Shown: positions 33,365 to 39,817 of the stretch, piece after piece
Layout of the letters: every line of letters starts with the position of its first letter
How positions within the stretch are numbered: position 1 is the first letter of the stretch
Origin: Bremerella volcania
GTDB lineage: Bacteria; Planctomycetota; Planctomycetia; Pirellulales; Pirellulaceae
NCBI RefSeq assembly: GCF_007748115.1
Contig: NZ_CP036289.1
Coordinates: forward strand, 6,200,001 to 6,264,000
Direction: 5' to 3'
DNA length: 64,000 nt
Position numbers and translations under genes: made by a program
The notes under the pieces: model-generated
What the model saw: only the letters and a program-made list of their open reading frames with translations
Told to the model about the DNA's origin: nothing
Database searches by the model: none

Positions 33365-34082
33365 CTAACTTCCATCGACGGACGTCATACCCTGCACTTG
33401 AGTCTTGCTGGCTTCAGGGAAGAAGTGAACCGAGCCGTCGGCCATCAACGCTTGAACTCCGTTGAAATATTGATCGTCGAAATTCTTCGACGTGAGTGCC
33501 TGGGGGGAGATATCGACCGGCTTGTACCAAGGAACCGGGTTGGTCGTGTCCTCGACCACCATGATGGCGTTGGATGTTCCCACCGTGATTTCCCCGAACG
33601 TACTGGCCTTGTCCATTCCCAACACCGACTTGGGTCCCGTAATGGCAACATACGTGGTGGCATCCCCCTGGCCTTCATTTCCCAGGGCAGGGCTTTCGTA
33701 CACAAACGGCATCATCTTGCAGGCCTGCATGTTGGCCGGGCTGTCCCATGGCTGCGAGAAGTCAGTCGTACTGAGCGTAGATGTGATTCGCTTCGACGAA
33801 CGGCAGGATCAACACCCGCCACGAGTGCATCGGCTGTCCATCTTCATCCGGAATATAAGCAGGCGGCAAGGTACCATAAGTATCGTGGTAGTTATGCAGG
33901 GCGAGCCCAATCACCTTCAGGTTGTTCTGGGACTGCATCCGCTGGGCAGCCATCCGGGCCTGGCCGATCGCCGGCACCAAGAGTGCCACCACGATGCCGG
34001 CACACAGGAGGGCCATCACCCCAAACACAACGACCAAGATGATAATGACGACTTTGGCATCGCCGCGTCGAGAAGCTTTCAT
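33365..34082 (-). pseudogene. DUF1559-like gene broken by a 4-bp tandem duplication
   Basis: The third of a run of three similar genes. The first part (34082 down to 33762) has a membrane span and the family motif [24 protein letters not shown], and stops at TGA after IYAQYD. The rest continues in another frame as FSQPWDS...PANMQACKMMPFVYESP and runs to the usual C-terminal GSVHFF region. At 33760-33767 the + strand reads AGTCAGTC, a perfect tandem repeat of AGTC. Removing one copy restores the frame and gives YDFSQPWDS, matching [10 protein letters not shown] of the neighbour. The intact protein would be about 237 residues. A sequencing error is possible. Confidence 0.85.
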
Positions 34083-34129
34083 GGTGGGGGTCCCTGACAG
34101 AGTCTTAAAACTGGAGTCCTGAAGCTGAA

Positions 34130-34912
34130 TTATTCATAGGCAGACGTTTCGCCTGCCTTGGCAAATTCTTTGCAAAGAAGGCATGCTCGCAGCTGTTGGG
34201 GATCATCTTCAGGCATCCACGTAACCGATGCATCGCCAAACAGCACCGCGTAGTAGGCATGGTCATTCTGGTCGATTGGGGGCCTTTCGATCAACTCAAA
34301 AGGACTGATATCCTCTGGTTTCGTCCAAATCACCGCCTGGTCGATCTGCTCGACGACCATCGCTACGTTACCTAGTTCACAAGGTACTTCGTCAAACGCA
34401 CGTCCTTCTTGGGAAAGCATGAGGGTTCGTTTTCCTTCCGGGTCGACTACCGCCAGGTAGCTCGTCATTCCAGGGTTCTCGGTAGGATCCAAAAAGGGAC
34501 TCTCGAACATATACGGCATTTGCTCGACCAACGGTCGATTCGTCTGGCTGTCCCACGGCTGAGAAAGGTCGAATTGGTCGTAGAGAGCCTGCTGCTCTAG
34601 AAATGGCAGAAGCAGCACTCGCCACGAGTAAAGCGGACGCCCCTCGGCATCGGTCACCACGGCCGGGGGCAAGGTGCCATAGAGGTCGTGATAGTTGTGC
34701 AGAGCGATGCCGATTTCCTTGAGATGGTTCGCCGACCAATCCCGACGGCCACTCGTCTTGGCCATCTTCGCCGCCGGCATGAGCAGCGCGGCCAAGACGA
34801 AGATAATGAGCACCATGACGATCCATTCGACAACCGTGAAATGCCACCACTTCTTGGGCTCCGGCTTACCCGTGTAAGCCTCAGGACTATCGAACGGATT
34901 GGGCTCGTTCAT
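34130..34912 (-). CDS. DUF1559-like pseudopilin-related protein
   Basis: A 260-residue protein with an N-terminal 30-residue soluble tail, one membrane span ([21 protein letters not shown]) and the family block [26 protein letters not shown] second block, [20 protein letters not shown], follows. The end has the GDASVTWM version of the H-x9-DG motif. Unlike typical planctomycete DUF1559 proteins it lacks a basic class III leader before the helix, so it may be an anchored rather than exported form. Its start overlaps the stop of the upstream paralogue by 4 bases (34909-34912). Confidence 0.88.
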
Positions 34913-35688
34913 GATTCATCTTTTCCCGTTCGGCCATCGTCGCAGTAAATCATCCCGATTAACTCGTCGCGGTTCGCCTCGCCAATGAACGTGTAAGACG
35001 CATCCCCCATCAAGACCAGGATACCGTGCATCTCGTTGTCACCGATCTGCGTAAGAGCCAACAGGTGCAGCGGATCAATATCTTCCGGCTTGGTCCACTC
35101 AACCAGGCGGACCGGATCGTCGATTACCAGCGCGCTGAAAGCTAACCCATCGGTAACCTCCCTGAAATTCCGCCCCTTCGTCGGGCGCAGCACGGTTCGC
35201 TCCTCACGGGTGTCGACCACTGCCCGGTAAGGCGTCTTTCCTTTCGCTTCCGCCGAACCTGGATGAAAGGGGCTCTCATAGATACCCGGCATCTTATTGA
35301 GCAGCTTTCGGTTGTGATCACTCGACCAAGGCTCGTCCAGGTGGAACTGCTCGTACAACTTCTTCTCTTCGATAAAGGGGAGAAGCAAAACACGCCACGA
35401 ATAAAGCGGTTCGCCTTGCGCATCCGCCACATAGGCAGGAGGCAGGGTACCGTAGGTATCGTAGTAGTTGTGCATTGCAAGGCCTATCTGCTTCAGGTTA
35501 TTGGCAGAGGCCATTCGACGCGAAGCGGATCTGGGCGTGTACACCGCTGGCACAAGCAAGGCCCAGAGAAACACCAACTCAATCAGCAAGCATCCCCAGT
35601 TCATCATCCGACTAGAGTTCCGCTCCCAGAAACTTTTTGGTGGTAGGGGATCACTTGGTACCTCAAAGGGATGTATCGATTCCGTCAT
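34909..35688 (-). CDS. DUF1559-like pseudopilin-related protein
   Basis: A 259-residue paralogue, first of the run. It has a basic/polar N-terminus ([23 protein letters not shown]), one hydrophobic span ([19 protein letters not shown]), and the block [44 protein letters not shown] follows, and the tail has [10 protein letters not shown] as the H-x9-DG-like motif. Three such proteins in tandem (33365-35688) with 4-base or short spacing form one operon. They may make a multi-subunit surface structure or be serial duplicates that diverged. Confidence 0.88.
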
Positions 35689-35903: not shown

Positions 35904-36285
35904 CTCCAGCCGCAAGGGATTCGATAACTGTACTGCCTGGGCAAGGTGGGGATCTTCCCGGGTGGTTAAGGTTTGCGAACGTCGTGAGTGAACAAGACGC
36001 ACGTTCACGTACGATAGTTCAGTTGAGAGTCCGCCTCTCTTACCAAAGTGGATGGTACGGCAAGAATCCAGGGAACGCTTCTCCTCTGGACCGGGGTTAA
36101 GTTCTGATGACCCTTTCTTGCACGACCAATAGCTCTTGGTAAGAAAGACGGACTTTCAGCGTTTCTTGGGGATAGTTTTCAGTTTTCATCAGGAAACACG
36201 TCTCACTGCGAACGTGTCGCCCGTAGTTAAAACTCTTCAGCAACAAGGGTTTACGCGAATTGTATCCCTGGGGCAGGGGTCGCGC
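35904..36285. other. Region without a supported gene, upstream of the heme-linked ECF operon
   Basis: No coding frame here has both good composition and a ribosome-binding site. It lies between the DUF1559-like run (leftward) and the ECF sigma gene (rightward) and so probably holds promoters for both. The right-hand end has the TATAAT listed separately. Confidence 0.55.
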
Positions 36286-36291
36286 TATAAT
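36286..36291 (+). promoter_or_regulatory. -10 promoter element upstream of the ECF sigma gene
   Basis: A perfect TATAAT lies 48 bases before the sigma factor ATG. No good -35 is visible at 17 bases; TTGTAT is present with a 20-21 base spacer. This suggests either an activator-dependent promoter or an ECF-type element not recognised by eye. Confidence 0.4.
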
Positions 36292-36338: not shown

Positions 36339-36953
36339 ATGGCTGCTTCGGACATCCCTGAGTTGACTGATGGCGAGATCCTCTCGGCCGTTTTGGCGGG
36401 AGATGCGGATCGGTATGCCGTCATCGTGAAGCGGTATCGCCGTGCCCTGTTGAACCTGGCCTATAGCTACCTGGGGGATTCGCAGTCGGCAGAGGACGCC
36501 GTTCAGGAAGCGTTTCTTAATAGCTTCAAGTGGCTGCATACCTACGACTCGCGATATAGCTTCCGCACGTGGCTGTGGCGAATTCTGCTGAATGTTTGCC
36601 ACCGAATTCGCGAGAAAGGGAAGAAGCTGCCTGTCACTTCGACCAAGCTTCAGGCGGGCCACAGTGACGAGAGCCCCTCACCATTAGAGACGGAAGTTCC
36701 CTGTCAGGTACTCTCTGGACTGATCGACCGAGAACGCCGCGGTCAGGTACTTAAGCTGCTCGATAAGCTGACTCCCATTCAAGCGGAAGCGATTCGCCTG
36801 AGATTCTTTGGCGAAATGAAATTTCAGGAGATCGCCGATGCGCAAGGCATCGGCCTGCCGGCTGCCAAGGCCCGCGTCCGCAATGGATTGCTGCAACTTG
36901 CGAAATTGATCCAGAACACTTGCCAAGAGCTTTCCGAGGAACACGTTCGATGA
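36339..36953 (+). CDS. ECF-type sigma factor with a heme-linked anti-sigma partner
   Basis: A 204-residue group 4 sigma factor. Region 2 is LLNLAYSYLGDSQSAEDAVQEAFLN and FRTWLWRILLNVCHRIREK. Region 4 has LTPIQAEAIRLRFFGEMKFQEIADAQGIGLPAAKARVRNGLLQL, a standard helix-turn-helix. It overlaps the downstream anti-sigma gene by 4 bases (ATGA at 36950-36953), the usual sign of tight co-expression. Its promoter may be autoregulated, but no clear ECF-type element was seen. Regulon unknown. Confidence 0.93.
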   Translation: MAASDIPELTDGEILSAVLAGDADRYAVIVKRYRRALLNLAYSYLGDSQSAEDAVQEAFLNSFKWLHTYDSRYSFRTWLWRILLNVCHRIREKGKKLPVTSTKLQAGHSDESPSPLETEVPCQVLSGLIDRERRGQVLKLLDKLTPIQAEAIRLRFFGEMKFQEIADAQGIGLPAAKARVRNGLLQLAKLIQNTCQELSEEHVR

Positions 36954-37642
36954 TTCAATCGCACCATCTACCAACCTGCGACGACGTGTTCGATGTGCTA
37001 ACCCGGGCTCCTTTTCCCACGGGTGAGCACGAGACGGATATGCCGATCCAACGGCATTTGACGGTTTGCCATAGCTGCCGCGAACTGGCCGAAGCGCTGC
37101 GGCCTGCGACGGAAATGCTAGCCAATGGCCAAGCTGACACAGACGATGACGACTGTTCGCTGCCAGTCTTTCTGGCCGACGATAGCACGCCTAGCCATCG
37201 CTGCATCACCGATCAGGCTGAGCGACCGACTACCGATATCGTGGCTGCCATTCGAGGTCCTCTGATTGCCTTGGCGTTGTGTCTGATGATCGTTTTGGCA
37301 GTCCAAGGGAATTGGTCGCACGGCTCGAGCAACTCGGATAACTCGTCTCCCACTTCCGATAGCCTAGCAACCACCGGTGCTAGTGGCGGAGCGAACCTGA
37401 CCGAGCTGCTTGCTGCCCCGAACATCTGTTCGCTCGTTTCTGTCGACGCGGCGGTGGAGAGTAAGGGGCCCGATGGCGAGCTACTTTCCCATCTTGCCGA
37501 TCATAAGTTCACCGAAACCCATTGCTGCAGCCAGTGCCATCATGCCAGTTCGGACAAGGTCAAGGCTCACAAGCGGGTTTCGCTCAAAGGGCCTCAGATG
37601 TTAGCCTTGGTCAGTCGCTGCCAGCATTGCCATGCACAATAA
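36950..37642 (+). CDS. Putative anti-sigma factor with zinc-binding-type motif, one membrane span and two CxxCH heme motifs
   Basis: A 230-residue protein. The cytoplasmic N-terminus has the anti-sigma zinc-binding-type motif H36LTVC40HSC43, with a further Cys10 in a region like the planctomycete CDDVFDVLTRAPFPTG block. The membrane span is about 101-119 (LIALALCLMIVLAVQG). A Ser-rich linker follows. The predicted periplasmic tail has two CxxCH motifs: CSQCH (193-197) and CQHCH (224-228), the classical covalent heme-c attachment sequence. The topology puts both on the side where c-type hemes are attached. This suggests a diheme sensor that controls the sigma factor; an alternative is a metal- or thiol-based redox sensor. 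Confidence 0.85.
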   Translation: MIQSHHLPTCDDVFDVLTRAPFPTGEHETDMPIQRHLTVCHSCRELAEALRPATEMLANGQADTDDDDCSLPVFLADDSTPSHRCITDQAERPTTDIVAAIRGPLIALALCLMIVLAVQGNWSHGSSNSDNSSPTSDSLATTGASGGANLTELLAAPNICSLVSVDAAVESKGPDGELLSHLADHKFTETHCCSQCHHASSDKVKAHKRVSLKGPQMLALVSRCQHCHAQ

Positions 37643-38124: not shown

Positions 38125-39174
38125 CTAGTCTGCTGGAAGTGCTGGCATTTCCTCAGCGGCTTCTTCAGTGAATGGGTGAGCCATTCCATTGGCGATCACT
38201 GCGTCGTCTTCGTCGACCCCGGCAGCAACCTGACCCTTGTCGTTGAGAAAGTAGTGCTTCATCGAGCTGGGCAAGTCTTCCAGGCTGATGAATTCGACAT
38301 GGCCATCATCAAATAAGATGTTGAATCGCCCATCTTCGTGACCCTGCGGGGCGATTTGCCCGTCTTGAACGACCACGATATCGGAAGCGACCGGATACAG
38401 GGCCCGACCTTTCATCAGTGGAGCTTGTAACTCGCCGTTGCGAAGGCTGCCAAGATTGTAATTGTAGACCGTCGCGAGTCCCTGCTGCAGTCTTTCGACA
38501 TCCGACTCAGGGGCATTCAACAATTGCTCGACGGTTGGCAACTGTTGCGGCTGGGATAGGTTCTGCGAGGCTTCGACGCAGCGAACCACTTCCGGGTGTT
38601 CCAGATAGCCGGCGTTCAATAGACGCGGAGCGTAAGAACCCGCGACCGACAGCGGACCCGTGGAAGCGACCGCAGGGTAGCGTTTTTCCGCGTTGCCGGT
38701 AGCAAACTCTTGCAGTGCCATACCGACCTGGCGGAGATTGTTTTCACATTGAAGTCGTGTTGCCAACATGCGTGAACTGGCCAGTGCCGGGAAGAAGATT
38801 GCTACGGCCGCGACACATGCCCCAACGGCCACCATCATATCCATCATGGTAAAGCGGGGACTGCCGCCGCCAATCGACTCAAAAGGTTGTTTGTCTTTAG
38901 GCGTCGGCGCGTTGGCGTCTTCGGGGGCTGCTGAATCGAGAACCTCGGCAAATAGGCTGGGGTTATCCAGAAGCGCACACGTACGTGTGGCAAGTCCGAC
39001 CGGCGGGGCGGCCTCATCGAGGCCATCGGACAATAAGTTCAGGTGAGTTCGAAGTTGTTCCAGCTCGTCCGCAGTGCGAGGGTCTTCAGCAATTTGCTGC
39101 TCGACCGAGGCCTGCTCATTTTCATCCAGGGCTCCCATTAGGTAGCCCAACCAGTGCTCACGAGTCTTCGTCAT
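38125..39174 (-). CDS. Anti-sigma-like N-terminus fused to a DUF1559-like pseudopilin domain
   Basis: A 349-residue protein. The first 60 residues (HWLGYLMGALDENEQASVEQQIAEDPR) read like the anti-sigma domain of RskA-type factors. A linker follows, then at about residue 105-125 a pilin-like helix with MMDMMVAVGACVAAVAIFFPALASS, and LQCENNLRQVGMALQ as in DUF1559 proteins. The tail has the FDDGHVEFI motif of the H-x9-DG type. The start overlaps the upstream ECF sigma gene by 17 bases. It fits a one-piece anti-sigma/sensor protein whose sensor part is pseudopilin-like, but the cleavage and localisation of this fusion are unknown. Confidence 0.87.
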   Translation of the reverse strand: MTKTREHWLGYLMGALDENEQASVEQQIAEDPRTADELEQLRTHLNLLSDGLDEAAPPVGLATRTCALLDNPSLFAEVLDSAAPEDANAPTPKDKQPFESIGGGSPRFTMMDMMVAVGACVAAVAIFFPALASSRMLATRLQCENNLRQVGMALQEFATGNAEKRYPAVASTGPLSVAGSYAPRLLNAGYLEHPEVVRCVEASQNLSQPQQLPTVEQLLNAPESDVERLQQGLATVYNYNLGSLRNGELQAPLMKGRALYPVASDIVVVQDGQIAPQGHEDGRFNILFDDGHVEFISLEDLPSSMKHYFLNDKGQVAAGVDEDDAVIANGMAHPFTEEAAEEMPALPAD

Positions 39175-39817
39175 CTGAGGTATAAATTTCGTTCCATGCT
39201 TCGGTTAACTTCTGCACTGCAGTATGCAGACGGCTCTTCACCGTACCGACCGGAATCTCCAAGATGTCCGCGGCTTCGCGGTACTTTAAACCTTGGTAGT
39301 AGACCAACACCACGGCGGTCTTCAATGATTCCGGCAGTTGCTGAACGGCATCACGCATCACGCGCTGACGTTCGTAATCGTCCATCTGTGCCATCGGCCC
39401 AGGCTCGGCACTTACCAACAAATCAACCAGCGAGCCGGTCTCTTGCTGTTCGGTGCCGTTGCCAGCGCGGTCCAAGCTAACCATTTTATGGCGCTTCGAC
39501 TTACGCTGAGCGTCGATCGCCTGATTGGTGGCAATCGTGTACAGCCAGGGGCGAAAACGACGTCCTTCCTCGAAGGTATCGCACTTCAGATGCACTTGCA
39601 GAAAGGCAGCCTGAAATACATCCTCCGCCATTTCGGGATCTCCCAAGTACCGCCGCAGGTAGTTGAACAGCTCACGTTCGTAACGCTGCACCAACTTCTG
39701 GAAGTACTCTCGGTTCCCCGAATCTCGGTACGCCAACAGCAAATCCTCATCGGATTTGGGTTGAACGAGCGATGGGTCGGAATAACTCGACGTCATTTCA
39801 AGTGTGGCAGTTGTCAT
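39158..39817 (-). CDS. ECF-type RNA polymerase sigma factor
   Basis: A 219-residue group 4 sigma factor. Region 2 is ELFNYLRRYLGDPEMAEDVFQAAFLQVH and FRPWLYTIATNQAIDAQRK. Region 4 is LPESLKTAVVLVYYQGLKYREAADILEIPVGTVKSRLHTAVQKL, a canonical helix-turn-helix. It begins with an unusual Ser/Thr-rich tail of about 25 residues. Translation is coupled to the anti-sigma/pseudopilin fusion that overlaps its end. Confidence 0.93.
   Translation of the reverse strand: MTTATLEMTSSYSDPSLVQPKSDEDLLLAYRDSGNREYFQKLVQRYERELFNYLRRYLGDPEMAEDVFQAAFLQVHLKCDTFEEGRRFRPWLYTIATNQAIDAQRKSKRHKMVSLDRAGNGTEQQETGSLVDLLVSAEPGPMAQMDDYERQRVMRDAVQQLPESLKTAVVLVYYQGLKYREAADILEIPVGTVKSRLHTAVQKLTEAWNEIYTSDDEDS

Follow-up and report, generated by a model that had tools for sequence, protein, structure and literature searches.

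The window, the whole stretch of 64,000 nucleotides analysed here, lies at 6.20-6.26 Mb of the Bremerella volcania genome, which is a single contig of 6.50 Mb. It contains an ECF sigma factor gene followed by an open reading frame for a membrane anti-sigma-like protein with two CxxCH motifs in its C-terminal tail (Table 1). The sigma protein matched the Pfam models Sigma70_r2 (E 1.1e-16) and r4_2 (E 8.8e-9), both over the cut-off, and no Pfam model matched the anti-sigma-like protein at E 1. A sequence-only reading had described an ATGA overlap of the two genes, an anti-sigma motif formed by H36, C40 and C43, one membrane span at about residues 101-119 and the motifs CSQCH (193-197) and CQHCH (224-228) beyond it. 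All of these were borne out: the sigma gene ends at 36953 and the ATG of the downstream frame is at 36950, the translation places the motif residues as described, and the span is found both as a helix (98-120) in the AlphaFold model and by hydropathy. Three cysteines, C10, C160 and C192, had been overlooked.

Table 1. Coordinates of the gene pair and its features in the window. A1 and A2 are two alignments of 27 and 32 proteins.
Feature	Position	Strand	Remarks
Promoter-like element (A-rich, TATCY, 14 bases, GCGCTATAAT)	36259..36291	+	Genus alignment; 5' of sigma gene
ECF sigma factor gene	36339..36953	+	204 aa; Pfam Sigma70_r2 and r4_2
Membrane anti-sigma-like protein, two CxxCH in C-terminal tail	36950..37642	+	230 aa ORF
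Putative zinc anti-sigma core C10, H36, C40, C43	36977..37078	+	Invariant, 27/27 and 32/32
Single transmembrane helix, residues 98-120	37241..37309	+	AlphaFold model; hydropathy
C160, additional outer cysteine and candidate heme ligand	37427..37429	+	Invariant in A1, at least 90% in A2
C192, extra outer cysteine abutting first motif	37523..37525	+	55/57 distinct two-motif proteins
CSQCH 193-197, first candidate heme-c attachment motif	37526..37540	+	Invariant, 27/27 and 32/32
CQHCH 224-228, second candidate heme-c attachment motif, extreme C-terminus	37619..37633	+	Invariant, 27/27 and 32/32

The promoter-like element upstream of the sigma gene was conserved, with a fixed 14-base spacing, in an alignment of 7 of the 9 genus members tried; L007 and L008 were left out, the sigma start not being located by the script. 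With up to 2 mismatches allowed, it was the sole match in the 6.5 Mb genome, and it looks like a sigma-70-type promoter. Neither the genus alignment nor the genome scan gave any sign of autoregulation in this conserved element. A regulon was sought through the promoter motif and none was found; the element has no second copy in the genome and resembles a sigma-70 promoter.

When the neighbourhoods of 34 loci were compared, the anti-sigma cluster spanned all 34, the sigma cluster 31 and the next cluster 9, so that only the sigma and anti-sigma genes recur in most; a 28-locus cluster of reverse-strand frames lying across the pair was antisense noise. PADLOC gave no match to a defence system. Beside the pair, a row of DUF1559-like genes occupies 33365-35688 on the reverse strand, the one at 34130-34912 being confirmed by Pfam, and similar genes also occur near L031, L032 and L033. 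On the other side, also on the reverse strand (38125-39817), a second ECF sigma gene (39158-39817) overlaps the gene of a 349-residue protein that combines an anti-sigma-like N-terminus, a span and a DUF1559 (SBP_bac_10) domain and has no CxxCH. Proteins with similar openings follow ECF paralogues in other genomes (L180, L184, L186, L187, L189 and L192).

The putative anti-sigma domain and the membrane span

As in the zinc anti-sigma factors of the RsrA, ChrR, RslA and RshA types, the gene lies directly 3' of that of an ECF sigma factor. The zinc ligands of RsrA are given in the available text of PMC4960319 as Cys11, His37, Cys41 and Cys44, which is exactly the spacing of C10, H36, C40 and C43 in the window protein. 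The window protein differs from all of these types in the addition of a membrane span and an outer CxxCH tail. In profile comparisons, ChrR was a weak match (E 0.057), ranked behind a designed membrane protein (E 0.0027) that matches the span, while zf-HC2 was found in 4 of 27 members with a best E of 0.018. A Foldseek search with the AlphaFold model returned no significant PDB match, known anti-sigmas included. The zinc domain and span of that model were confident and the tail was of low confidence (blocks 40-72). The best 19-residue hydropathy window was at residue 97 (mean 2.46), the next best having a mean of 1.25.

The window protein is best described, from its sequence, as a putative anti-sigma that probably holds the ECF sigma factor through its cytoplasmic domain. 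The tail is predicted to lie outside the cytoplasm, where the sequence-only reading had put it. By charge balance, this placement stood for 43 of the 57 distinct proteins with at least two CxxCH motifs, 3 were tied and 11 indicated the contrary orientation.

Conservation of the outer motifs and their association with the sigma factor

A protein search found relatives of the anti-sigma-like protein in 38 of 199 family genomes; a profile search did so in 59 of 296 genomes of the order and, mostly as weak N-terminal matches, in 30 of 294 of the phylum. The named relatives belong mostly to planctomycetes, including Blastopirellula marina and Pirellulales MAGs. The 73 distinct close matches, all with a strong N-terminal match, fell into 57 proteins of 194-352 residues with at least two CxxCH (the window protein included) and 16 of 135-159 residues that have none and end after the span; there were no single-CxxCH proteins among them. 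As the two-motif class is defined by the motif itself, the fair count is 57 with at least two and 16 with none, of 73. Six loci (L110-L112, L114, L145 and L147) had no N-terminal match, and matches in G081, G034 and G209 lie outside the counts.

Two alignments were used, A1 with 27 of 30 loci (L021, L022 and L026 left out) and A2 with 31 of 33 loci plus the window protein (L050 and the tail-less L057 left out). Beyond the membrane, the sole invariant residues in A1 were C160, C192, C193, C196, H197, C224, C227 and H228; in A2 the six motif residues were invariant and C160 and C192 reached 90%. Pairwise identity in the tail was 0.15-0.20 across the family, compared with 0.78 and 0.71 at the motifs. 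None of the 57 two-motif proteins had an outer CxxC without the histidine. The motifs were 24 residues apart in 25 of the 57 (range 22-54), and in many members the second lay at the C-terminus or close to it. When the outer residues of the 57 proteins were shuffled, at least two CxxCH appeared in only 2 of 17,100 shuffles, so the motif pair is not due to chance.

Relatives vary in the number of motifs. Those at the class level (family f21) have one CxxCH in the C-terminal part together with one extra cysteine (10/10 distinct proteins), two loci (L023 and L061) encode three CxxCH, and tail-less short forms without CxxCH are found at the 15 loci of f7, one family within the order, and in the lineage L057, which has the same protein as L130. 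Among 85 distinct proteins, 79 had as many extra outer cysteines as CxxCH motifs (0/0 for 16, 1/1 for 10, 2/2 for 52 and 3/3 for 1), the exceptions being L053, L051, L005, L016, L028 and L061. The forms at L115-L130 and L057 are both sigma-less and tail-less, yet their zinc domain is conserved. Similar upstream frames recur in 14 of the tail-less forms, and at L122 these include a peroxiredoxin-like gene.

Loss of the CxxCH motifs from homologues with the same gene order had been named earlier as the result that would speak against a heme-bearing anti-sigma. The motifs survived, and 54 of the 59 distinct proteins with at least two CxxCH had the sigma gene immediately 5' of their own (from an overlap to 100 bases away). 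Of the 85 distinct proteins that were left when 13 weak phylum-level rows (L096-L100, L102, L104-L109 and L113) had been dropped by hand, 54 had at least two motifs and the sigma gene, 10 had one motif and the sigma gene, 5 had two motifs without it, and 16 had neither. Put differently, the sigma gene was just upstream of 64 of the 69 proteins with CxxCH, all 64 proteins with the sigma gene had CxxCH, and in no case did it adjoin a protein without the motif. Eleven of the 13 dropped rows adjoin an ECF gene of another group (39.5-82 bits); none has a CxxCH beyond residue 100, with 8 running off the fetched stretch. These phylum-level matches suggest that, in anti-sigmas of this general type, heme is not needed.

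With profile A4, orthologues of the sigma factor reached 233-278 bits, against 119 bits for the best other ECF protein in 20 genomes. Wherever the tail was absent, the orthologous sigma was absent as well (16/16). In a hand-chosen set of 20 genomes it was present in 4 (233-247 bits) and absent from 16, namely 7 with tail-less proteins, 5 with tailed but sigma-less proteins and 4 others. A search of 20 hand-chosen family genomes at E 1e-50 detected the sigma in 9 of the 10 that have the anti-sigma and in none of the 10 that lack it; in the exception, G004, an adjacent sigma-like frame scored lower with another profile (172.8 bits). Five tailed proteins (L038, L058, L085, L086 and L131) had no orthologous sigma adjoining them or elsewhere in their genomes, indicating that the tail can outlive its sigma factor.

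The tree, built on 84 columns, left 47 of 82 inner branches open and needed three tail changes, and a test on independent pairs found one pair on starred branches and no significance. The association of tail and sigma factor is therefore suggestive and short of statistical proof, as the tree is poorly resolved and the correlation amounts to some three changes on it. As a control, the frames 3' of 20 paralogous ECF genes were inspected, these being the first 20 non-orthologous rows from the sigma profile search of the 20 chosen genomes. Seventeen had an ORF of at least 80 residues, of which 7 run off the fetched stretch, and CxxCH was present in one, a frame without a convincing span. By this sequence comparison, CxxCH is a mark of the present pair and not of the ECF neighbours sampled.

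Probable heme c and the competing explanations of the tail

The sequence pattern makes covalent heme c on the outer tail likely. The histidine after each CxxC is invariant and no outer CxxC lacks it, which fits heme attachment, whereas a zinc knuckle needs no such residue. The single CxxCH of the class-level relatives would suffice for one heme but would be only half a zinc ribbon. A profile of the tail (alignment A3, 52 of 57 tails) gave 14 weak PDB matches to E 1, 12 of which are labelled cytochromes; the best (E 0.0016) was the sum of three repeats, and the alignment of one labelled cystathionine beta-synthase was rich in CxxCH. At E 0.1, 25 of the 52 tails matched Pfam Cytochrome_C7, 14 matched Paired_CXXCH_1 and 2 matched zinc or rubredoxin-like models. 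Such profile matches are weak and, as they lean on CxxCH itself, partly circular. The small multiheme cytochromes of the Cytochrome_C7 and Paired_CXXCH_1 families have closely spaced CxxCH pairs, as in the tail, but the matches are weak and the tail, unlike these proteins, has no conserved distal histidine and forms part of a putative membrane anti-sigma.

A match to a cytochrome c assembly protein was found in the genome (PF01578, 86-88 bits against a cut-off of 29.9) and is compatible with either System I or System II. ResB (PF05140) was detected in neither of the 2 genomes of the genus of the window and in 11 of 12 others, the miss being G019. A CcsA-like heme-attachment gene lies in the genome of the window (L157, G000:C1:1292663-1293232). 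A search of that genome with the tail returned four matches to E 10, which were the window protein itself, L150 (E 0.0013), which has an in-frame stop and no fitting gene, L151 (E 6.0), an NrfH-like cytochrome, and L152 (E 6.8), a 55-residue frame. The NrfH-like protein (G000:C1:3820748-3820945) has four CxxCH and is encoded beside an NrfA match (C1:3819077-3820420), so that the organism probably makes multiheme cytochromes. A link between the pair and ammonifying nitrite reductase was considered and rejected, as strong NrfA matches (E <1e-80) were no commoner with the pair (4 of 10 chosen family genomes) than without it (6 of 10).

An outer site for zinc or another metal, Zn(CCCH) or ribbon-like and either structural or metal-sensing, is a weaker explanation than heme and in our judgement an improbable one. 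An extra cysteine and a CxxCH would supply a CCCH set, C-x2-C pairs 24 residues apart (25/57) resemble ribbons, and there are weak matches to Zn_ribbon_IS1595 (E 3.3) and, in one tail each, to zf-CHY and PknG_rubred. Set against this, the motif histidine is invariant, and an adjacent cysteine and histidine that both bind one zinc are unusual; one-motif relatives exist; helices rather than knuckles are predicted at both motifs, at low AlphaFold confidence; and where c-type cytochromes are made, an outer CxxCH should end up hemylated or oxidised. Less probable still, and indeed very unlikely, is an outer thiol-disulfide sensor with switchable disulfides and no cofactor. The two-motif form has six cysteines and C160 could pair with C192, but a thiol sensor has no need of the motif histidine, which is invariant, the number of cysteines in the one-motif form is odd, and L053 keeps both CxxCH without either extra cysteine.

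A further explanation retains heme c and changes its role. The tail would be a sentinel substrate of cytochrome c maturation: under a shortage of heme or of synthase capacity it would stay unhemylated and be mis-oxidised or cleaved, and the freed sigma factor would turn on genes for heme supply or maturation. According to the available text of PMC8112865, purified CcsBA loads heme onto a 9-mer CXXCH peptide, both thiols and the histidine being required, which means that an unstructured tail could be a substrate. In keeping with a sentinel role, the tail keeps no conserved core, the attachment residues and extra cysteines alone being retained, its AlphaFold confidence is low and, in many members, the second motif is terminal or nearly so. 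Conversely, the role leaves the extra cysteine per motif unexplained, and no maturation genes were linked to the pair in the 34 neighbourhoods. We regard it as unlikely, if less so than the metal site.

Proposed axial ligands, possible signal and significance

If heme c is attached, the histidine of each motif would be the proximal ligand and the sixth ligand would probably be an extra cysteine, one per heme. Bis-histidine ligation, as in the c7 and Paired_CXXCH families, calls for an additional histidine per heme, and none was conserved at 90%; no outer histidine or methionine beyond the CxxCH motifs was conserved in the alignments. A histidine directly follows the first motif in 23 of the 57 two-motif proteins. 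In the one-motif proteins L093 and L101, there is no other histidine or methionine from the span to the end of the motif, leaving cysteine as the sole usual sixth ligand. The count of extra cysteines and the lack of conserved histidine or methionine beyond the motifs make Cys/His ligation plausible. On stereochemical grounds, C192 adjoins C193 and so cannot reach the far side of its own heme; it would instead be a ligand of the second heme or form a pair with C160.

There are precedents for parts of this arrangement. The sCache_heme domain (DUF3365/Tll0287) is described in the accessible parts of a preprint (PMC12889525) as an outer covalent heme c sensor in which CXXCH is 99% conserved and in which part of the family has Cys/His axial ligation. 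The signalling member tested there binds NO; a Cys-ligated member bound NO weakly, and the other tested protein is described as lacking the axial cysteine. By analogy, a cysteine ligand here would favour redox over NO sensing. The tail, as proposed, would share the outer heme c and Cys/His ligation, but sCache_heme is a folded Cache domain with one heme, and it signals through kinases, MCPs and cyclic nucleotide enzymes, the word 'sigma' being absent from the main text of the preprint. No Cache model was among the Pfam matches of the window protein or the tails, and the tail was modelled with low confidence. In the SoxA/TsdA family, a cysteine axial ligand to heme c is established, as far as the available text of PMC4423706 and PMC9562282 goes; these cytochromes are sulfur enzymes, not regulators, and none was named among the 14 PDB matches of the tail profile.

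The preferred reading, held with moderate confidence and based on sequence, is that of a membrane anti-sigma with an outer heme-c tail, probably Cys/His-ligated, that gates an ECF sigma factor. The pair would form a two-gene signalling unit of planctomycetes. The cytoplasmic RsrA-type zinc domain would hold the sigma factor, one helix would span the membrane, and the poorly conserved and probably unstructured outer tail would have its two CxxCH loaded with heme c by the cytochrome c synthase. A change at the heme (in oxidation state, by loss of the cysteine ligand, by binding of NO or another gas, or by absence of the heme) would alter the tail, after which the anti-sigma would be cleaved or rearranged and the sigma factor released. 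A single membrane helix is unlikely to pass electrons to the cytoplasmic zinc site, so the signal would pass by conformation or proteolysis. The sequences establish the gene pair, the positions of the zinc ligands, a predicted span, the conserved outer cysteines and histidines, and the shared presence and absence of tail and sigma factor. Heme attachment, cysteine ligation, anti-sigma action, the signal, regulated proteolysis and the regulon are all points that we infer, as is the sensing of redox, O2, NO or electron flow that the sequence-only reading had proposed; the signal may be redox or a gas, or else heme attachment itself. A more specific form, in which a near-unfolded outer peptide carries one or two Cys/His-ligated c-hemes and its hemylation or ligand state gates the sigma factor, is offered tentatively, at well below an even chance. 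If true, the tail could report the capacity for cytochrome c maturation, or the NO or redox state of the periplasm.

A full-text literature search, with key planctomycete ECF papers beyond its reach, found no heme-c anti-sigma factor among the papers listed. By word search, heme, cytochrome and CXXC are absent from the main text of an anti-sigma classification (PMC7406223), as are heme, haem and cytochrome from the searchable text of an ECF review (PMC8103513).

The pair offers a likely cofactor, a hypothesis on its ligands and eight target residues for mutation; the one-motif, two-motif and tail-less versions provide a natural comparison set. Planctomycetes have many ECF sigma factors, the signals of which are mostly unknown. 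If heme c is confirmed, the pair would join the world of ECF anti-sigmas to that of extracytoplasmic heme sensing, and it points to an unstudied way in which bacteria may read redox, gas or heme supply outside the cytoplasm.
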